From positions 1 to 43,907 of IMG/VR virus record IMGVR_UViG_3300036852_000352: DNA of 43,907 nt; one strand, given 5' to 3'. Shown here piece by piece: positions 3,566 through 43,907 of the stretch. The notes under the pieces are model-generated. The model saw nothing but the letters and a program-made list of their open reading frames with translations. It did no database searches and was not told the origin of the DNA. The DNA is from a virus. The position numbers were made by a program, and so were the translations under genes. Each line of letters starts with the position of its first letter. The first letter of the stretch is position 1.

Positions 3566-4351
3566 GTGAGTGTCATCCAGCAGCCCGGAATCTCCAACCC
3601 CGAGGACAAGATTGTCTGGTCGGAGAACCTTGGCGCCCTCCTTCTGTTCTTCCCGACCTCCTTCGTGGAGAAGGTGAAGACGACCAACGGTGAGGCCGAC
3701 GCCGTCTACGCCCGGATCGTCCGCCTCAACGACGGCCGCGTCTTCGAGAACGCGATGGTTTACCCCACCGCGCTCGTCACCCAGCTGAAGGGCGCCATTC
3801 CCGACGGCATCGTCCTCGGCACCCTCGCCCAGGGCGAGAACAAGAAGGGCAACCCGCCGTGGCTCCTCCAGCCGCACGACGCTCAGCAGGTCGCCCAGGC
3901 GGAAGCGTGGATGGCCGCCAATCCTCGCGTGCAGCAGGCGCCGCAGCCCCAGGCCCCGGCTGCCCCTCAGTGGGGTGGGGCAGCCGCCGCTCCGGCCCCG
4001 GCATGGGGTCAGCAGGCTCCGGCAGCTGCCCCGGCTGCGGGTGGTTGGGGAAACCCCCCGGCCCCGCAGCCCTCCGCTCCGAACTGGGGCTCAACCCCCG
4101 CTGCACCTGCGGCTCCTGCACCGGCCCCGTCATCGCCTGGTGCAGGGTGGGGAAGCCCGGCCCCTGAGGGCGTCCCCGGTACCGCCCCGGCAGCATGGCA
4201 GAACGCTGGCGCCCCGGCGGCAGCGCCCGTCGCCCCCCAGTCCGACCCGAGCGCTGTCGCCGCACGGCTGACGGCCATGGGCATCACCATCCCGCCGGGC
4301 ACCACCCTGGAAGCCCTCATGGGCCTCGCGGCGGTCTACGGGATCCAGTAA
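3566..4351 (+). CDS. ssDNA-binding-like protein with Pro/Ala-rich tail
   Basis: 261-aa protein. The first ~110 residues are a compact, likely OB-type domain (IVWSENLGALLLFFPTSF, VYARIVRL, ENAMVYPTALVTQLK). Residues ~115-225 are a low-complexity Ala/Pro/Gln/Gly/Trp linker with repeated PAPxWG-type units. The last ~35 residues form a small helical end. An OB fold plus disordered linker is the usual SSB design, and actinophages often carry an ssDNA-binding protein beside a Cas4-like nuclease, as here. The acidic SSB tip (DDDIPF) is missing. GTG start with CTAGGAG at 3551-3557. A strong terminator follows. The SSB role is inferred. Confidence 0.6.
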   Translation: MSVIQQPGISNPEDKIVWSENLGALLLFFPTSFVEKVKTTNGEADAVYARIVRLNDGRVFENAMVYPTALVTQLKGAIPDGIVLGTLAQGENKKGNPPWLLQPHDAQQVAQAEAWMAANPRVQQAPQPQAPAAPQWGGAAAAPAPAWGQQAPAAAPAAGGWGNPPAPQPSAPNWGSTPAAPAAPAPAPSSPGAGWGSPAPEGVPGTAPAAWQNAGAPAAAPVAPQSDPSAVAARLTAMGITIPPGTTLEALMGLAAVYGIQ

Positions 4352-6836: not shown

Positions 6837-7001
6837 ATGGCGTACTTCGGAAGGAAGCCGGAGAAGCCCGGGTCGGTCCCGGGTGCCGCTTCGGGTGGCG
6901 CCGAGCAGGAGAGGGCTGCGCGGCGGCGGGGAGCCGTTCAGCGTCTTGCCCGTCGTGCCGCTGACGGCCGGGCGGTCCGTAACGCGAGGAGTGCCCGGTG
7001 A
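6837..7001 (+). CDS. Small basic protein
   Basis: 54-aa Arg/Ala-rich protein (ERAARRRGAVQRLARRAADGRAVRN), strongly basic and helical in its second half, with a flexible Gly/Pro opening. GGAGGAG at 6824-6831 is its ribosome site. It may bind nucleic acid. Its stop overlaps the GTG of the lysozyme gene. Confidence 0.55.
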   Translation: MAYFGRKPEKPGSVPGAASGGAEQERAARRRGAVQRLARRAADGRAVRNARSAR

Positions 7002-7798
7002 TTTACGGCGTGGATGTCAGCTCCTGGCAGCCGGAGGCTTTCCCTCTGGAGATTGACGGGGTGGCCGTCGACTTCGCGATCATCAAGGTCAGCGAGGGTG
7101 ACCTCTACATCAACCCGAAGTGGCAGGCGCAGCGAGACCACGCCCGGCGCAACGGGCTGTCCGTCGGCTACTACCACTTCGCCCGGCAGGGCAACCTCCT
7201 CTTCCAGGCCGAACGGTTCCTGGCGATCGCCCAGCCCGCCACGGGGGAGCACCTGTGGCTCGACTGGGAGGACACCCAGGTCACCTGCTACGAGAAGGAT
7301 GAGTGGATCAGGCACCTCAAGGGGAACGCTCCTCAGCACCGCGTCGGCCTGTACTGCAACCAGGACTTCTGGCTCAACAGGGATGTCAGCAATTTCGTCG
7401 GCGACGGCCTGTGGATCGCCCACCACGGAACCCCGGCGGGGATGCCGGACACCGATGATTCCCCTTGGGCGATCCACCAGTACTCGACCGGCGGTGGCAT
7501 CGACCACAACGTGGCGCAGTCTGCCAGCCGTCAGGAGATGAAGGACTGGGCGTCGGGGCTGATCACCGCACCGAAGGATCCGCTGGACGTCATCGCTGAT
7601 GGGGTTCTGATCAACCGGCAGATGATCGAATCCCTCGCCCACGAGCTGGAGATGGAGCGGCAGGTATCGCGAGCCCGGTACGACACCCTGAAGGAGTCCG
7701 TCGATCAGATCAGGGTCACCGTGGACGGGCTGGTGCCGGACCACGGTGACCCTGCGGCCGACGTGGTCGATGAACTCGCCCGCCGTCTGACGAGTTGA
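6998..7798 (+). CDS. GH25 lysozyme (endolysin)
   Basis: 266-aa protein of the glycoside hydrolase 25 family (Chalaropsis-type lysozyme), which cleaves the MurNAc-GlcNAc bond of peptidoglycan. Acidic residues D6 (GVDVSSWQ) and D89/E91 (WLDWED) sit in the usual positions, and the family end motif IHQYSTGGGIDHN is present near residue 165-170. Residues ~190-266 form a helical tail (coiled-coil-like, DVIADGVLIN to LARRLTS) in place of a recognised wall-binding domain. It is the last gene before a strong terminator. A second lysin of CHAP type is at 40507; the holin candidates lie elsewhere, so lysis genes are split. Confidence 0.92.
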   Translation: MIYGVDVSSWQPEAFPLEIDGVAVDFAIIKVSEGDLYINPKWQAQRDHARRNGLSVGYYHFARQGNLLFQAERFLAIAQPATGEHLWLDWEDTQVTCYEKDEWIRHLKGNAPQHRVGLYCNQDFWLNRDVSNFVGDGLWIAHHGTPAGMPDTDDSPWAIHQYSTGGGIDHNVAQSASRQEMKDWASGLITAPKDPLDVIADGVLINRQMIESLAHELEMERQVSRARYDTLKESVDQIRVTVDGLVPDHGDPAADVVDELARRLTS

Positions 7799-8100: not shown

Positions 8101-8162
8101 CCGAGCGATGCGAACTGTGGAGCATCGAGGATCGGAGGCGTCGTGCTGCGAGCCGCGCTTAA
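8097..8162 (+). CDS. Possible 21-aa leader peptide
   Basis: ATGA overlap with the previous gene. The peptide is MTERCELWSIEDRRRRAASRA, shown here in full at 21 residues less its final Ala is basic at the end. It overlaps the primase-polymerase start by 20 bp and may only provide translational coupling to that gene. Low support otherwise. Confidence 0.3.
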   Translation: MTERCELWSIEDRRRRAASRA

Positions 8163-9027
8163 GGCGCTGAATATGGGGTTTCATATTTTCCCCGTCCGGG
8201 CCGGAGACAAGGTTCCCCATTCACTGGCCGGGCAGTGGGGCGAGACGGCCACCAACGACCCCAACCGGGTTATCCAGTTCTGGACGCAGATCGACCCCAC
8301 CGCTAATATCGGCGTCGCCTGTAAGCCGTCCCAGCTCCTCGTCGTTGACCTCGACCGGGCCAAGGTCCCGTGGCAGCTTCGCGGCACCGAATGGGAGCAC
8401 CTCCACGGCGTGTACGGGCAGCTCGTCCAGGGCGAAGACCTCTTCGACGAGATGTGCTACAAGCTCGGTGGTGACGCCCACCGGCGGGACACGTTCGACA
8501 CCTACCAGGTCCGTACCGGCTCCGGCGGCCTCCACCTGTATTACGAGTGGCCCGCCCACTGGCCCCGGATCTCTCAGGCGTCGCCCGTGAAGGGGCTCGT
8601 AGATGTCCGGGGCAACGGCGGCCAGTACGGAGGCTACGTGCTCGCTGAAGGTTCCAGGACGGCCGCCGGGGTGTACGACTGGGACGGGCACTACCAGTCC
8701 ACCGGGGTCATCCTGCCACCGGTGTGGCTGCGCCGCCTGGTCGCCGAGAAGCCGCCCGCCCCGAAGATCCGCCGCCCTCAGGGGTTGCGCCAGCCCGGCG
8801 CGATCAGCCACTCCGGTCTCGTAGACACCGTCCGCAACGCCGGAGAGGGAAATAGGAATAACAGCCTTCTCTGGGCGGCGAGAACGATGTGCGAGGAAGG
8901 CGTCCCCGAGACCGAATGCGTGTCGGTCCTGGGCGAAGCGGCCCGGGATGCAGGCCTGGGCGATTTCGAAATCGAGCGGACCATCCAGTCCGCCTACCGA
9001 GTCCAACGACAGAAGGAGTCACGATGA
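8143..9027 (+). CDS. Bifunctional primase-polymerase (prim-pol)
   Basis: 294-aa protein with an N-terminal archaeo-eukaryotic-type primase-polymerase domain, which makes primers and extends them during DNA replication. Motifs: IFPVRAGDKVP, FW-x-NIGVA, the metal-binding pair D69-L-D71 (LLVVDLDRA), then TGSGGLHLYY and VDVRGNGGYVLAEGS-like strands (about residues 125-175). Residues ~225-290 form a helical primase C-terminal module (GEGNRNNSLLWAARTMCEEG, ERTIQSAYR). GTG start. A RepA-like hexameric helicase (37394-38890) supplies the missing unwinding activity, the usual pairing in plasmids and some phages. Confidence 0.88.
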   Translation: MLRAALKALNMGFHIFPVRAGDKVPHSLAGQWGETATNDPNRVIQFWTQIDPTANIGVACKPSQLLVVDLDRAKVPWQLRGTEWEHLHGVYGQLVQGEDLFDEMCYKLGGDAHRRDTFDTYQVRTGSGGLHLYYEWPAHWPRISQASPVKGLVDVRGNGGQYGGYVLAEGSRTAAGVYDWDGHYQSTGVILPPVWLRRLVAEKPPAPKIRRPQGLRQPGAISHSGLVDTVRNAGEGNRNNSLLWAARTMCEEGVPETECVSVLGEAARDAGLGDFEIERTIQSAYRVQRQKESR

Positions 9028-31844: not shown

Positions 31845-32196
31845 CAGCCACACCTCCCGGTACCACCTGAAAGTAATACATTTCGAATTGAGCTATCTAC
31901 CCTAAATTGGAACGTCCGCCCGCCGGGGGGCATTTGCAGGGAGCTTTGCAGAAGCGAATACGGACATTGATGACACATTCCCCATATCCCCTTATATGCA
32001 TATATAGGCACTATGACCTGGCATTGCACCGCATACCATGACGCATGCACCTATATGCATTCATTTGCACTGGCAATGGGGATTCGCTAATGCAAAGCGC
32101 AGCCTTTGCCTTCCCTTTACCCACCCCCACCCACCCATGCACTACACTAAGGGTATACCAAGAAGGAGCACCGGAAAGGGGGAGGGAGAAGCGCCC
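31845..32196. promoter_or_regulatory. Divergent AT-rich control region
   Basis: Non-coding 352 bp between the leftward terminase operon and the rightward gene at 32197. It is much more AT-rich than the rest, holds a perfect 12-bp palindrome TATATGCATATA (31993-32004) and nine TGCA tetranucleotides between 31930 and 32145, roughly ten times the chance rate. GGTATACC (32152-32159) lies 38 bp before ATG 32197 and is shared with 35054. No open frame with a ribosome site is convincing. Likely promoters and operators for both directions, possibly a packaging or second origin site. Confidence 0.65.
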
Positions 32197-32292
32197 ATGA
32201 AGGACACCACACCCAGTGCCACACCCGGGTACGTGACCCCATGGGCGTACTCACTCCCACCCTCACGGCCCACCCCACAGGAGCCCTCGTGA
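32197..32292 (+). CDS. Short Pro/Thr-rich leader peptide
   Basis: 31 aa (KDTTPSATPGYVTPWAYSLP). GGGAGGGAG 8-16 bp upstream is a good ribosome site. Stop overlaps the next GTG, so it may couple translation. Little else supports it. Confidence 0.4.
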   Translation: MKDTTPSATPGYVTPWAYSLPPSRPTPQEPS

Positions 32293-34072: not shown

Positions 34073-34987
34073 ATGGAATTCATGAGCAGTCCTAATCCGT
34101 ATTCGGGTCTGGGCGGCAAATCGTCCGATATACCGGATTTCGCGGATTTCGCTGATGCGCCTGCGTCTGACGCTTGCAATGTCACGCTCGGTGTGGGGCC
34201 GGAAGGCCCTGTGTCGGTCGATCTGGATGCCGAGTCGCCTCACATCCTGGTGAATGCCCCGACTGGCATGGGCAAGTCGGCTGTGGCCCGTTCTGTGGCC
34301 GTCCAGGGGTTGTGCCGGGGTGACCTGGTGGTGTTCCTGGACGTGAAGATGCACAGCCACCGGTGGGCGCGTGACCTGGCTCCGTTGACTTTCTATGCGG
34401 ACACGGACGCAACTGTGGGTGCGGCTCTGGTCAATCTTGGCCGGGAGTTGCACCGCAGGAATCAGGTGGTGCGCGACTTTGACGGCGATATCGAGGATGC
34501 CCTCGTGGGGCCTCGGATCATCGTGGTTTTTGAGGAGACGAACGCGACACTGACGCATTTGGCGGCGCTGGACAAGACGGTCGCTTCGGGCGGCTACAAG
34601 GCCATGGATGCGTTCCGTGACCTGATGTTCATGGGGCGGGCGGTGAAGATGCACGTGGTGGCTTTCGCCCAGCTTGCTTCGTACCGCTCGGGCCTGAGTG
34701 CTGACCTGATCGAGAATTTCGGCACGAAGGTTCTGATCAGTGCGTCTCAGAAGGCCTGGAAGTGGCTGGTGCCGGAGTGCGGCACTTATCGCTCCACTCC
34801 GGAGATCGATGGCCGTGCCCTGGTGTGCAGGGGTAACCGGGCGCGCGAGACGCAGCTCCTGTGGGTCGAGGAGGAGGATGCTCCGGCTCTTGTTCTGGCT
34901 TCTCTTCCGGCTCAGCAGAGGGCGCGCGAGCTGTCTGGCACCCGGGCAAATCTGCCTTCGGTGTGGCGGCAGGCGATCAGCAGGTGA
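34073..34987 (+). CDS. FtsK/TraB-like DNA translocase ATPase
   Basis: 304-aa P-loop ATPase of the FtsK/HerA kind. Walker A is APTGMGKS (62-69), followed by LVVFLDVKMHSHRWARDL. The acidic Walker B is IIVVFEETN near residue 150. Later come FRDLMFMGRAVKMHVVAFAQ and NFGTKVLISAS, as in FtsK/Tra motors. It has no membrane segment and no gamma domain, and is about half the length of chromosomal FtsK, closer to the motor core of Streptomyces plasmid transfer proteins. It probably moves along or pumps double-stranded DNA. ATG has AGAGGAG upstream. The structured region before it carries 8-bp repeats that might be its recognition site (inference). Confidence 0.78.
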   Translation: MEFMSSPNPYSGLGGKSSDIPDFADFADAPASDACNVTLGVGPEGPVSVDLDAESPHILVNAPTGMGKSAVARSVAVQGLCRGDLVVFLDVKMHSHRWARDLAPLTFYADTDATVGAALVNLGRELHRRNQVVRDFDGDIEDALVGPRIIVVFEETNATLTHLAALDKTVASGGYKAMDAFRDLMFMGRAVKMHVVAFAQLASYRSGLSADLIENFGTKVLISASQKAWKWLVPECGTYRSTPEIDGRALVCRGNRARETQLLWVEEEDAPALVLASLPAQQRARELSGTRANLPSVWRQAISR

Positions 34988-36702: not shown

Positions 36703-37248
36703 TCAGGCGCCGCACGCCTCGACGTGGTGCTTCCAGATCATGACTTCCCCGAGCTCGATGGACGCGAACGTCCCGTCGGCCATCGGTTCGCCGCATCCGT
36801 CGCACCCCGGCCCCTCAGAAACCGGCTTCGCCGCAGTGATGGCACCAGAGGGTTCCGTCGAGGGAGCCGAGGACAGGGTCCCAGGAGCCGCAGGCGGGTT
36901 CTGGGGAGCTTTTGGGGCCGGTCCGGGTGTCCCGGGACCCTTCACCCCCTGTGGGGCCCTCAGAGCGGCTCCTGTGGCTTCCGCCTTGCACCGGTGCTGC
37001 ACGACCACCATCGGCCGTTCGGACGGGTCGGGAATCCTCAGCCCTCCGAGGACGGCCGGTGAGGCGCTGGCGAACGTGGAGGGCCGCCCACTCAGGTAGT
37101 GGACCCGGTAGAGGTTCAGTCCGGCCAGGAGCGCGGCTCCTGCTGTCTGGGCGTCGAGGGGTGAGGCTTCACACCGGACGCGTACCCCCATGAAGTCGTC
37201 CACGAGGATCACACCGCCACATCCCTTGCAGGGTTCAACCTTGATCAT
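36703..37248 (-). CDS. Zinc-ribbon hypothetical protein with Pro/Ala linker
   Basis: 181-aa protein. N-terminal CKGCGGVILVDDFMGVRVRCE ribbon-like part, a helical stretch (SPLDAQTAGAALLAGLNLYR), a Pro/Ala/Gly-rich linker (about residues 100-140) and a C-terminal second ribbon (GCDGCGEPM, WKHHVEACGA). Its ATG lies only 20 bp from the iteron array, so its transcription may be linked to replication control. Not recognised. Confidence 0.62.
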   Translation of the reverse strand: MIKVEPCKGCGGVILVDDFMGVRVRCEASPLDAQTAGAALLAGLNLYRVHYLSGRPSTFASASPAVLGGLRIPDPSERPMVVVQHRCKAEATGAALRAPQGVKGPGTPGPAPKAPQNPPAAPGTLSSAPSTEPSGAITAAKPVSEGPGCDGCGEPMADGTFASIELGEVMIWKHHVEACGA

Positions 37249-37480
37249 TTAGGGCTCCAGTTCCGGGCGAAACCTGACCCTGGGCCTCCCTAAAGGTCGG
37301 CCCCAGGTGGGGTTTCGGGGTTTCGGTCTAGGTTTCGTTTTCGGGGCTCTAGGTTTCGCCGCAGGTCAGACCAGGTTTCGCTTCAGGTTTCGCTTAGGTT
37401 TCGGAGGTTTCGGCAGCAGGTTTCGCAAGCCCCCCCGAAACCTGCTGCGAAACCTCGTTATCCACATAGTTATCCACAGG
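37249..37480. other. Candidate replication origin (iterons plus DnaA boxes)
   Basis: Combines 12 copies of GGTTTCG/CGAAACC (37268-37454) with two perfect TTATCCACA DnaA boxes at 37458-37466 and 37470-37478, directly beside and within the 3' end of the RepA-like gene. This is the arrangement of iteron plasmid origins and of the lambda O/ori pair. The right part is also coding sequence of repA. Assignment as ori is inference from layout. Confidence 0.75.
37268..37454. repeat. GGTTTCG iteron array (9 direct, 3 inverted)
   Basis: Direct GGTTTCG starts at 37311, 37319, 37331, 37352, 37374, 37386, 37397, 37406 and 37419. Inverted CGAAACC starts at 37268, 37436 and 37448. Most are preceded by A or CA. 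Spacing mostly 8-22 bp. One copy of this 7-mer would be expected by chance in several kilobases. Confidence 0.95.
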
Positions 37481-38890
37481 CTTCCGGCGTCTGCGAGGGC
37501 CTGCCAGTTCCACCCACCGGTCCCCCAGCGCAAGCTGCCGGGCGATCGTCGCGACCCCCATGGGGGTGATCACCCAGGGCCCCTTCGCGACCGGCTGCGC
37601 GGCCAGCGGGGGATCCAGTTTGGCTAGTTCGATCATCCGGTTACGGACGTTCTGCCGACCGTTGCGCATGGCCCCCCGGGTCTCCTCCAGCTTCGAAGCC
37701 ATGTCCGACGGAGTCGCCCCCCGGCTCTCGTAGAAAGCCAGCAGCTTCAGGTAGAACATCTGGTCGGCAGTGACGTCCGGCAGGTAGCCGGGCGCCTCGG
37801 GAAGCTGCGTCTCGGTGACGTCGAGACTGCCGCCCTCCACGGCGACCGGGACCAGGGAGTAGACGGGGTCACCGAAGAAGTCCTCGCCGACCGGATAGGA
37901 CTTCATGTCGAAAGTCAGGATGTCCTTTTCGGCAATCGCGTCCTTCTGTTTTCCTCCGTCCGCCTGGGCGGTGGAAATAGACACGTCCATGGCGTCCTCT
38001 TTGCGGTTGAGAATGCACACGGTGTCGGCGGCTGCGTAAATCATCGAGCTGCCGCGCATTCCGGCGCCTTTCTGTTTGCCGAAGTGGTGGACGACCAGAA
38101 CGCAGGCTGCGGAGACTTCCCGGATCCGGTGGAGGACGTTGATGACCAGATTCATTTCGGAGGAGTTCTCGTCCACGCCGACCGTGCACATGGCCTGGGT
38201 GTCGAACAGGACGAGGCCGAATGGGCGCCCCGCTTCGTCTTCCTCCTTCAGGTAGGACAGGAGTGCGGGCATTTCTTTCAGGGTGTCGCCGAGCTGGAGT
38301 GGCGCCGGGTAGATGGAGACGTTCCGGACGGGGCGGCCGTGGTGCTTCTCCCACGCGGTCTTGCGGTCGGCGTACGCCCCGGCGCCTTCGGCCACGACGA
38401 GCAGTGCCCGCCCGGACGTCATCCGCTTGCCGTGGAAGTCCATGCCGTCTCCGGCGCCGTACCGGAATGCCAGGTCGGCGGTCACGAACGACTTGAACGT
38501 GCCGGAGGTTCCCGCCACCCAGGTGAGTGTGTTCCGGAAGAACAGCCCCTGGACGACGGGGGTTCGTACGGTCGGCTCGAAGTCGTGCGCTTCGGTGACT
38601 TTCGGCCGCAGGCGTGTGTCGCGGAACGCTTCGGCTGCCGGGGCGAGGCTGCCGCCGAGTTCGGCTTCGAGGCGTTCCGCTTCGACTTCGCGGCGCGCCT
38701 GGTCCATGAGCCGCAGGCGCTGCTTCTCACCGTCAACCGCTTCCTGGAGGGGTTTGCCGTTGAACTCTTCGAGTTCGGCGGGGGGCAGGAAGACCGGCTC
38801 TCCTTCTGGCCAGTCGATTTCGGGCCGCCACGGTGACGGCTGGGCGCCGGGGTTTCCGTCCCGGTCGACGGTAGGGCTGTACAGCTTCAC
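37394..38890 (-). CDS. RepA-like hexameric helicase / AAA ATPase
   Basis: 498-aa RecA-fold ATPase of the RSF1010 RepA/AAA_25 kind. Walker A is GTSGTFKS (127-134), then RALLVVAEGAG, Walker B LVLFD (226-230), VLVVHHFGK and the RGSSMIYAAADTVCIL segment. A helical C-terminal region (residues ~400-470) resembles a winged helix. It unwinds DNA at the origin and probably pairs with the prim-pol at 8143. GTG 38890 overlaps the HTH gene stop by 4 bp (GTGA). Its last codons contain the DnaA boxes and the edge of the iteron array. Confidence 0.85.
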   Translation of the reverse strand: MKLYSPTVDRDGNPGAQPSPWRPEIDWPEGEPVFLPPAELEEFNGKPLQEAVDGEKQRLRLMDQARREVEAERLEAELGGSLAPAAEAFRDTRLRPKVTEAHDFEPTVRTPVVQGLFFRNTLTWVAGTSGTFKSFVTADLAFRYGAGDGMDFHGKRMTSGRALLVVAEGAGAYADRKTAWEKHHGRPVRNVSIYPAPLQLGDTLKEMPALLSYLKEEDEAGRPFGLVLFDTQAMCTVGVDENSSEMNLVINVLHRIREVSAACVLVVHHFGKQKGAGMRGSSMIYAAADTVCILNRKEDAMDVSISTAQADGGKQKDAIAEKDILTFDMKSYPVGEDFFGDPVYSLVPVAVEGGSLDVTETQLPEAPGYLPDVTADQMFYLKLLAFYESRGATPSDMASKLEETRGAMRNGRQNVRNRMIELAKLDPPLAAQPVAKGPWVITPMGVATIARQLALGDRWVELAGPRRRRKPVDNYVDNEVSQQVSGGLAKPAAETSET

Positions 38891-39066
38891 GTGTGGGTCA
38901 CCTTCCGCTCTTCGAGCCAGTCGAGGAGGTCGGCCCACTTGTAACGTCGGATGCCTTCGACTTTGACGAATGGCGGTCCTTTTTTGCGGTGGGCCCACGC
39001 GTCGAGGGTTCCGGGCTGGATCGCCAGGTATTCGGCGACTTCTCGGGTGGAGGCGTAACCTTCCAC
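38887..39066 (-). CDS. Excisionase/AlpA-like HTH protein
   Basis: 59-aa winged-helix protein of the MerR/Xis type: STREVAEYLAIQPGTLDAWA (HTH), HRKKGPPFVKVEGIRRYKWA (wing), DLLDWLEERK. No integrase is found, so a role in copy control or repA regulation is more likely than excision. GTG 39066 is chosen for its AAAGGGG ribosome site; GTG 39071 is out of frame. It leads straight into repA. Confidence 0.8.
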   Translation of the reverse strand: MEGYASTREVAEYLAIQPGTLDAWAHRKKGPPFVKVEGIRRYKWADLLDWLEERKVTHT

Positions 39067-40300: not shown

Positions 40301-40507
40301 GTGCATCCCTCCACCGCCCAGGTTCTCCAGTACTTCAGCTACGAACACCTGCCCGAGAAGCTTCAGCGGGTCAGCCACCCCTTCTGCGACCTTGCCGAAT
40401 CCCTCGCCCACGAGCTGGACGGCCCCGAACTGACCGTCGCTCTCCGCAAGCTCCTCGAATCCAAGGATGCAGCCGTCCGCGCCGCCCTCACTCCCAGGGA
40501 GAACTGA
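40301..40507 (+). CDS. Acb2/Tad1-like hairpin-domain protein (possible nucleotide sponge)
   Basis: 68-aa helical protein: TAQVLQYFSYEHLPEKLQRV, SHPFCDLAESLAHELDG, PELTVALRKLLESKDAAVRA. The order H-L-P, helix, P-E-x2-V-A-L-R-K-L-L-E-x-K-D-A-A-V-R-A matches the small two-helix family that includes anti-CBASS Acb2 and anti-Thoeris Tad1-type sponges, which bind cyclic nucleotides and so blind host defences. Whether this member binds nucleotides is unknown. GTG start; TGATG overlap with the lysin gene. It is the first gene after the RHH-controlled promoter region. Confidence 0.6.
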   Translation: MHPSTAQVLQYFSYEHLPEKLQRVSHPFCDLAESLAHELDGPELTVALRKLLESKDAAVRAALTPREN

Positions 40508-41346
40508 TGACCCTGTCCCGCCCCGCCTACGTCAACCTCCTCAGAGCCCAGACCGGCTACCACGAAGGCCGCGACGCCAACGGCAACTGGAACAACTACC
40601 AGAAGTTCTCCCCGGCCACCGCAGGCCTCGAATGGTCCCAGAACCAGGCCTGGTGCTCCACGTTCACCGCCTGGGGTGCCGACGAGCTCGGCGAACGTGA
40701 AGCCCTCCCCATCACCGCGTCCTGCTCGACCGGCGTCCAGTGGTTCAAGAACCGTGACCGGTGGACCGACTACCCCGTCCTCGGAGGCCTCTTCTACATG
40801 GGGGCCAGCGGCGGTGACCACGTCGGCGTGGTCCACGGCTACGACGCCGACTCGATCTACACCGTCGAAGGCAACACCAACGCCGGTGGCGGCTACCAGG
40901 GTGACGGGGTATACGAGCGGGTGCGTCCCCGCCGGGGACCGGGCAGCCCGTACGGCTACGGCATCCCCTACTACGCGGAAGAGACCGTCTCCGCCGCACC
41001 CGCTCTCGGGGGAACCGTCAGCGCTTCCGTCGCGCCCCCCCAGCCCCCCGCCCGCCCCCGGGTGTCCGTCTCCCACATCGAGGCGGCTCGCCTGCGGGAC
41101 CCGGGCCTCGCCCAGGGCGGGACGACCTACCCGGCTGACGTCAACCTGGTAGAGGTCGCGCTCGCCCGGGAAGGCCTCCTGCGGGACGCCTACGCCCACG
41201 ACGGCTCTTTCGGCTCCCTCACCGTGGCCGCCTATGACGCGTTCCGGCGCCGGGTCGGCTACACCGGTGATGACGCGACCGGCTCCATCGGCCGGGCCTC
41301 GCTGACGAAGCTGGGCGACCGGTACGGTTTCGACGTCGTCAACTGA
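40507..41346 (+). CDS. CHAP-domain endolysin
   Basis: 279-aa lysin. Residues ~15-165 form a CHAP amidase/endopeptidase: C50 in QAWCSTFTAWGADE, H105 in GGDHVGVVHGY and E121 in YTVEGNTN. A Pro-rich linker (about 168-185, APPQPPARPRV) leads to a C-terminal peptidoglycan-binding-like domain with VEVALAREGLL, YDAFRRRVGYTG and ASLTKLGDRYGF. It cuts amide or peptide bonds in peptidoglycan, while the GH25 enzyme at 6998 cuts the sugar chain. Directly followed by a holin. Confidence 0.9.
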   Translation: MTLSRPAYVNLLRAQTGYHEGRDANGNWNNYQKFSPATAGLEWSQNQAWCSTFTAWGADELGEREALPITASCSTGVQWFKNRDRWTDYPVLGGLFYMGASGGDHVGVVHGYDADSIYTVEGNTNAGGGYQGDGVYERVRPRRGPGSPYGYGIPYYAEETVSAAPALGGTVSASVAPPQPPARPRVSVSHIEAARLRDPGLAQGGTTYPADVNLVEVALAREGLLRDAYAHDGSFGSLTVAAYDAFRRRVGYTGDDATGSIGRASLTKLGDRYGFDVVN

Positions 41347-41544: not shown

Positions 41545-41559
41545 AAAGCAGCAGGTCAG

Positions 41560-41942: not shown

Positions 41943-42061
41943 GCCCTCATAGCTCAAGACAGGTCCTGAGAGCCCTTTGCAGAGGGCGGGCCTCACGTCA
42001 CGGCAGAGCGCCCCCGATAGGACGGGGGATCCTGATGCGGGTTCGAATCCCGTTGGGGGCA
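41943..42061 (+). tRNA. tRNA-like element with extra stem-loop (abnormal)
   Basis: 119 nt. The 5' acceptor GCCCTCA (41943-41949) pairs 7 of 7 with TGGGGGC (42054-42060), followed by A. TA and a GCTC D-stem start come next, then a stem-loop GCCCT-TTGCAG-AGGGC that could be an anticodon arm (GCA, Cys). A normal T-arm, GCGGG-TTCGAAT-CCCGT, is at 42037-42053. Between them lie about 41 extra bases with a second D-loop-like piece and a stem-loop CCCCCG-ATAGGA-CGGGGG. Without that insert the length is a normal 78 nt. Function is doubtful; no CCA is encoded. Confidence 0.5.
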
Positions 42062-42090
42062 CGCACCATCCCGACCACAAGGAGAAGCAC

Positions 42091-42450
42091 ATGACCGAGA
42101 CCTTCAACCTGGAAAACGCCGACCGCGTGGGCAAGGCCTACCTGATCGGCTATCTCGCCGAGTCCAACGGCCTCACGCTGAAGGACGCCGAGAAGGCCGT
42201 CAACGGGGTCCTGGAGGCCATCGTGGCCGCCCTCCGGTCCGGCGCCAACGTCTCTCTCGCCAACATCGGAACGTTCCGCCGGGAAACCGCCCCCGAGCGG
42301 TCCCGGTTCAATCCGATGACCGGTCAGCACTTCCAGACGGAAGCCCAGGAAGTCGTCCGCTGGACGACGAGCCCCACCTTCGGTCACGTCCTCAACGGTC
42401 GCATCAGCCGCGAAACGCTCGCCACGAAGGCCCCGAAGGGATCGCTGTGA
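42091..42450 (+). CDS. HU/IHF-like nucleoid protein
   Basis: 119-aa protein of the bacterial DNA-bending (HU) family: ADRVGKAYLIGYLAESNGLT, KDAEKAVNGVLEAIVAALRS, GANVSLANIGTFRRETAPER, the SRFNPMTGQHF arm tip, and RWTTSPTFGHVLN. It is longer than host HU by a short C-terminal tail. It may bend origin DNA or help packaging. AAGGAG 8 bp upstream; first protein gene of the long rightward run. Confidence 0.9.
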   Translation: MTETFNLENADRVGKAYLIGYLAESNGLTLKDAEKAVNGVLEAIVAALRSGANVSLANIGTFRRETAPERSRFNPMTGQHFQTEAQEVVRWTTSPTFGHVLNGRISRETLATKAPKGSL

Positions 42451-43620: not shown

Positions 43621-43907
43621 CTTTCACCTACCACGGCCGCCACCGGGTCGTTGAGGACCCCGAGGTCCGCTTCACGAAGAAGCTGGACCTGATCATCACC
43701 GGCACCGACGCCGACCACGGCGAGGCCAGAACGTTCCGCGTCGACCGGATCACAGGAAGGATCACCCACGTTGCTCCCCGCAACCGAACGGGGTCGCCGC
43801 AAGCGCCGGGAGTACCCCACTGCGGTGGGCCGTCCGGCGCTCGTCACCGGCCCCGACCTGGAAAGAGTGCAACAGAGGATCCGTTCGTTCCACGCCCGAG
43901 GTATGTC
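43611..43907 (+). CDS. WYL-like domain protein (partial at window end)
   Basis: GTG 43611 begins IAFTYHGRHRVVEDPEVRF and TKKLDLIITGTDADHGEARTF, then FRVDRITGRITHV: the short strand set plus FR-x-DRI typical of WYL-type ligand/nucleotide-sensing modules in actinophages. The frame runs off the end. Across the junction it stays open to 543, 211 codons in all, overlapping the HTH gene for about 475 bp. The recognisable domain stops around the HTH start, so the rest is probably a shadow or a lost stop. Confidence 0.55.
   Translation, partial: MRIAFTYHGRHRVVEDPEVRFTKKLDLIITGTDADHGEARTFRVDRITGRITHVAPRNRTGSPQAPGVPHCGGPSGARHRPRPGKSATEDPFVPRPRYV
43704..43907. repeat. Terminal redundancy, right copy
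   Basis: Same 204 bp as 1-204; the one difference is C at 43817 where the left copy has T. Confidence 0.97.
43771..43907 (+). CDS. Second copy of HTH gene start (partial)
   Basis: Duplicate of the first 137 bases of the gene at 68 because of the terminal overlap. Codon 16 reads Pro here and Leu in the other copy. Confidence 0.85.
   Translation, partial: MLPATERGRRKRREYPTAVGRPALVTGPDLERVQQRIRSFHARGM

Follow-up and report, generated by a model that had tools for sequence, protein, structure and literature searches.

The window (the whole stretch of 43,907 nucleotides analyzed here) is most likely the complete genome of a Streptomyces-type soil phage of 43.7 kb, because a 204-bp direct terminal repeat lies at its ends (1-204 and 43704-43907, 203/204 identical); the ends are nonetheless classed as linear. 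The locus described here occupies 36.7-39.1 kb of the minus strand, where an HTH_17 gene (39066-38887), the helicase gene repA, an array of short repeats and a zinc-ribbon-like gene (37248-36703) follow one another in this order. Among named phages, Streptomyces phage Dagobah is the closest relative, with a terminase 78.7% identical, and a DNA-level search against named phages returned a 162-bp match to Dagobah only. Dagobah was isolated on S. coelicolor and is predicted to be temperate (PMC7650747). Elsewhere, the window contains a 119-nt tRNA-like Rfam match (41943-42061) with no ARAGORN call, which could be a tRNA carrying a long insert, a tRNA in decay or an att-like remnant. The listed open reading frame of an HU/IHF-like DNA-binding protein (41977-42450, PHROG 379) overlaps this match. 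The genome also holds a short FtsK/TraD-like ATPase gene (34073-34987), with no further transfer gene among the scanned genes, and two distinct endolysin-type genes (6998-7798 and 40507-41346).

The repA gene and the repeats at its 3' end

The repA gene (37394..38890, minus strand, start codon GTG) encodes a 498-aa protein with a RecA-fold helicase core (Pfam AAA_25, E=1.2e-20) that is homologous to RSF1010 RepA (profile match to 1g8y, E=7e-8). The AF2 model of the full-length protein is moderate only (pLDDT 72.9). The segment encoded at 37517..37795 (minus strand) is predicted to fold as a MarR-like winged helix (pLDDT 89.3), for which the best Foldseek matches were MepR, RosR and MosR-DNA complexes (TM 0.65-0.73, probability 1.00, with E-values of only 0.02-0.05). 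This C-terminal domain, at residues of about 366-458, is our candidate for the part of RepA that binds the repeats and reads the origin. Residues 456-498, which follow it, are predicted to be disordered. The stop codon of the small HTH_17 (excisionase/MerR-like) gene (38887..39066, minus strand, PF12728, E=1.5e-8) overlaps the repA start by 4 nt. On the far side of the array, 36703..37248 (minus strand) encodes a conserved zinc-ribbon-like protein (MIKVEPC...), which sequence comparison places beyond the array in close relatives also. A separate AEP-type primase-polymerase gene (8143..9027, plus strand, PHROG 695/1156 DNA primase/polymerase) likely encodes the primase of the system. No DNA polymerase gene was seen among the scanned genes of the window.

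The original prediction of 12 GGTTTCG/CGAAACC copies within 187 bp was borne out by an exact motif count, which placed all 12, each a perfect match, at 37268..37454. The whole window contains 17 copies, against 6.3 +/- 2.5 expected, and no second dense repeat cluster of the iteron kind was found elsewhere in it. The actual iteron unit is AGGTTTCG, as an A precedes GGTTTCG in 10 of the 12 copies and there is no constraint on the outer flanking bases; in comparisons with relatives we gave the repeat word as CGAAACCT. Read in the sense of repA, the array consists of two GGTTTCG, nine CGAAACC and one GGTTTCG, so that inverted copies stand either side of nine copies in the same orientation, and the start-to-start spacing is mostly 8-22 bp. 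The repeats had been said to lie both beside and inside the RepA-like gene, and this is the case: five iterons are coding and seven are intergenic.

Three features of the locus come in addition to those first noted: the zinc-ribbon gene, hairpins formed by inverted iterons at both array ends and a fixed element, CTGACCTGC. At the repA-proximal end, inverted iterons form a stem of about 20 bp with a 13-bp perfect core (37405..37455, minus strand, -23.5 kcal/mol, z=-7.8). The outer arms of the far-end hairpin (37268..37317, minus strand) are the last iteron pair, with a GC inner stem and CCTTTAGG at the loop; its significance in the window is modest only (z=-2.0), and relatives share the design, with z down to -5.0 in G006. 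A terminator role for the hairpins was set aside, as they have no T tract. The CTGACCTGC element (37361..37369, minus strand) occupies one iteron slot and starts 10 bp after the preceding iteron core start, as judged by alignment and spacing comparison. A second copy lies at 41551 with no array around it; thus, the element is remarkable for its place and not for its sequence.

Two perfect DnaA boxes (TTATCCACA, 37458..37466 and 37470..37478, plus strand) lie 12 bp apart, as originally reported, and 3 bp from the outermost iteron. As repA is read on the minus strand from 38890 down to 37394, both boxes and five of the iterons are coding, within the codons of the disordered tail (PVDNYVDNE...). 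Chance alone would give 0.09 exact copies in the window, and 0.01 tandem pairs even with three mismatches allowed. The two boxes form a tandem duplication of 12 bp within the stretch that encodes PVDNYVDN.

The region has the multiple short repeats, the regular near-helical spacing and the adjoining initiator gene that characterize iteron origins. An AT-rich unwinding region is absent, with AT at or below 50% in every 50 bp of the region, and for this reason we give less weight to a classical iteron-plasmid origin. No sigma-70-type promoter was found at the array. A packaging site was considered for the array and rejected because the terminase genes and the genome ends lie elsewhere.

The same site in relatives

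Relatives were gathered via terminase and also via RepA alignments, and the 3' end of the helicase gene was inspected in each. An array was called significant when it had at least 5 copies and none of 60 shuffles was equally good. This shuffle test found a significant array at that end of the gene in 14 of the 18 RepA relatives, compared with 4 of 259 windows taken as controls from elsewhere in these loci. Three of the 18 (L108, L110 and L117) have none at the site. In L108 the winged helix is retained in the RepA encoded around 5002, and the zinc-ribbon gene follows directly, with no array between. The fourth exception, a RepA relative at about 3.64 Mb of the S. coeruleorubidus chromosome (L144), has a shortened array and is perhaps a decaying prophage remnant. 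L035, which was found via the fixed element and not via RepA, also has an array at the site. Scanning viral contigs with the RepA sequence alone gave no match, and no convincing array was found in phages of Mycobacterium, Gordonia, Tsukamurella, Nocardia, Corynebacterium, Rhodococcus and Caulobacter with weakly similar helicases. Two loci of this set, L134 and L136, reach p 0.015-0.03 solely through GC-rich repeats. Two further phages have dense arrays at the 3' end of a RecA-family helicase gene that are unannotated in their records: Rhizobium phage 16-3 (L141, 14 CGTGACA at 4014-4340) and Roseobacter phage CRP-821 (L140, 10 GTATAAA at 4062-4210).

The iteron word differs between loci. It is CTAAACCT in G003 (a complete genome with its own 123-bp terminal repeat), CGAACCCT in G012 and G018, YGACACCY in G019, TGAACCGG in Dagobah, TGAACCCA in G006, GGAACCGGTTCC in G020 and ATAGCGAAG in a Streptomyces griseorubiginosus contig. 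The Dagobah array is placed at 38.55-38.67 kb of that phage. The layout recurs across these differing words. An alignment of six arrays revealed invariant columns around CTGACC(T/A)G, and this element starts 9-10 bp past the preceding iteron core start in all nine instances from eight loci, a placing with a chance of about 8e-9 if shared ancestry is ignored. The register is not universal, since in L035 the element lies 7 bp from the neighbouring iteron. Relative to CTGACC(T/A)G, iteron slots recur at approximately -55, -42, -32, -21, -10, +11, +22, +33, +45 and +54, and the last inverted iteron at +92 to +95. Slots agreed within 1 bp in 232 of 372 comparisons among seven loci, a count uncorrected for the relatedness of the loci. 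Permuting the gaps within each array gave 168.5 +/- 16.4 (maximum 232 in 500 trials), and random spaced sites gave 80.9 +/- 11.3. Inverted iterons bracket the array in most loci, and the loop of the far-end hairpin is often CCTTTAGG or similar.

The module also tolerates a change of helicase. In Dagobah (L083), G006 (L125) and G020 (L130), a different core, a RadB/RecA-like helicase, lies between the same HTH_17 and zinc-ribbon genes. Despite the other core, a similar C-terminal domain and the same array plan are kept. Judged by sequence, this is a helicase replacement within a conserved module.

The DnaA boxes do not share this conservation. No perfect box was found at the array in the 12 relatives examined, and one of them has a box with one mismatch. 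The proposal that the boxes recruit the host is thus unsupported as a general mechanism; because relatives lack them, recruitment of DnaA would at best be peculiar to the phage of the window, where the boxes, although no part of the conserved origin, may add host DnaA.

We tentatively propose, as a possibility that falls short of probable, a widespread class of phage origins in which about ten iterons change their sequence in step with the winged helix of the adjoining RecA-fold helicase, and in which the spacing, the bracketing inverted copies and a near-invariant CTGACCTGC slot stay fixed. If slots are frozen and words change in this way, the CTGACCTGC slot is perhaps a second recognition site, for the primase, a host factor or a conserved face of the initiator. 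The element by itself is not diagnostic. A scan of viral contigs for iterons plus CTGACCTGC was too loose: it picked up at least 240 stretches that look like chance matches, and one RepA-like ORF, some 770 bp away from its site.

Probable origin function and the candidate protein that would read the iterons

The conserved place and layout of the array in relatives, together with the adjoining gene for a replicative helicase, support the original prediction of an iteron-type origin beside repA. We consider it probable (roughly two chances in three) that the region is the replication origin of the phage, and that the RepA-type helicase loads itself via its winged helix on the iterons beside its own gene. 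We infer iteron binding, RepA loading, priming and origin activity as follows. RepA would be a ring helicase of the RSF1010 RepA kind with its own origin-reading, C-terminal MarR-like winged helix. It would bind the AGGTTTCG iterons, which start in the last repA codons and offer slots about one helical turn apart. The bracketing inverted iterons and the hairpins may help to assemble the origin or to position and open the DNA. After opening, RepA would load, the phage AEP primase would prime on the exposed DNA and a host polymerase would extend.

Both RepA and the HTH protein at 38887-39066 had been proposed as binders of the iterons. To compare them, array k-mer profiles from eight loci, with the fixed element masked, were set against protein identity in Mantel tests. 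Array similarity correlated with identity of the RepA C-terminal domain (rho 0.51-0.59, p 0.003-0.016; 0.45-0.54 without the closest pair) and less with that of the RepA core (rho 0.29-0.42). There was no positive correlation with HTH_17 (rho -0.32 to -0.39) or with the zinc ribbon (rho -0.1 to -0.24). G012 and G018, which have their iterons in common, are 89% identical in the C-terminal domain, 65% in the core, 41% in HTH_17 and 40% in the zinc ribbon. This covariation favours RepA as the binder. Part of it may reflect linkage without functional matching, because the winged-helix codons adjoin the array and the two could be exchanged together.

It is unlikely that the array is an operator, a partition site or an incompatibility site and not an origin. 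Its place immediately before the zinc-ribbon gene would allow it to control that gene, and iteron arrays can serve in partition or copy control. However, the partner that covaries with the array is the helicase C terminus and not the downstream protein, the repeats are not dispersed in the manner of stoperators, and the array lacks a recognizable sigma-70-type promoter. For partition, no parA or parB was present among the scanned genes.

We regard it as rather improbable that the HTH_17 protein is the iteron-binding initiator, a RepC-like partner of the RepA helicase as in RSF1010. RSF1010 does use a separate initiator of this kind (PMC4234260), and the HTH_17 protein has a DNA-binding fold and a gene that overlaps the repA start; among the eight compared loci, seven have it close to the helicase gene. 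However, HTH_17 is missing altogether from the complete relative G003, whose array is full, and HTH_17 identity does not follow array similarity, as the negative correlation and the G012/G018 pair illustrate. The HTH_17 protein is disfavoured as the binder on these two grounds.

An origin outside the array, such as the AT-rich intergenic stretch 31853-32240, with another role for the array, is very unlikely. Cumulative GC skew, which had been suggested as a check, gives no pointer to 37.4 kb and has its minimum at 32-33 kb. The stretch has the strongest GC skew in addition to this minimum, and contains the palindromic TATATGCATATA. Against this, it abuts the terminase genes and shows no RepA-linked conservation. 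It carries TTTGCA/TGCAAA repeats, and in Dagobah TTTGCA repeats lie by the terminase, inside the terminal repeat. The adjoining terminase and the place of the Dagobah repeats suggest a role in packaging or at the genome ends, and 31853-32240 is therefore a candidate packaging or terminus region. Least probable of all is a DnaA-dependent origin as in iteron plasmids, with host DnaA at the two boxes as the key initiator: the boxes are a perfect tandem pair, rare by chance and close to the outermost iteron, but they are a duplication in disordered-tail codons, and the twelve relatives examined have no perfect box.

Should self-loading of RepA on the iterons hold, the RSF1010 RepA helicase family would have phage members that act as their own initiators. 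Nature would then have provided a series of matched pairs of iterons and winged helices in which specificity has changed and geometry is fixed, and the joint change of an initiator and a dozen sites would become directly testable. Compatible plasmid origins for Streptomyces are a possible yield. The open-licence papers searched describe no origin for the phage group of the window; an earlier description elsewhere is possible.

Comparison with known replication systems

The lambda O, TP901-1 and Tuc2009 initiators are not helicases and recruit the host helicase. In lambda the iterons are found midway through the O gene. The original comparison with lambda ori and iteron plasmids holds for the placing of repeats beside an initiator gene, and the likeness to lambda is loose for the reason just given. 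The phage array lies where a helicase gene ends, without the AT-rich stretch of a lambda-type ori. In lambda O/ori and in the lactococcal replisome organisers of TP901-1 and Tuc2009, the iterons lie inside or beside the initiator gene (PMC8965321). Mycobacteriophage prophage plasmids have a cis origin at repA, and their RepA is a plasmid-type protein of 320-350 aa with an N-terminal HTH (PMC7157519). The RepA of the window, as a RecA-fold helicase, differs from these proteins.

The P4 alpha protein is an SF3 helicase fused to a TOPRIM primase, with two separate cis regions, ori and crr, and differs from the phage system in both respects. It resembles that system as a single initiator-helicase that reads iterons (PMC4234260). 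In pRN1, ORF904 has a C-terminal winged helix and the origin lies 3' of the gene, with a stem-loop kept in structure and not in sequence; the authors of that study also remarked on phages of a pRN1-like plan (PMC4234260). Unlike the phage array, pRN1 has no iterons, and ORF904 is a fusion of a primase and an SF3 helicase.

RSF1010 shares with the phage a homologous RepA helicase, a separate primase and an origin with iterons and hairpins. The hairpins conserved at the phage array are candidate counterparts of the hairpin ssi priming sites of RSF1010. RSF1010 needs a separate iteron-binding protein, RepC, whereas no obligatory RepC gene was found in the phage, where the helicase itself bears the predicted winged helix.

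Closer than lambda are SaPI Rep/ori and SCCmec Cch2. In these systems (Ubeda et al. 2007 for SaPI, as described in PMC7581432), the C-terminal domain of the initiator helicase reads short iterons directly 3' of its own gene, in a sequence-specific pairing. The phage iterons likewise lie directly downstream of the helicase gene, in most RepA relatives and in few control windows, and phage RepA, like SaPI Rep, has a C-terminal DNA-binding domain, here a predicted one (pLDDT 89). The helicase family is different from those of SaPI Rep, SCCmec Cch2 and pRN1: the SaPI and SCC helicases are of DUF927 or D5-like type, and phage RepA is an AAA_25 RecA-fold protein. Unlike the SaPI and SCC origins, the phage array is built without an AT-rich centre, around a fixed CTGACCTGC slot and between bracketing inverted iterons.
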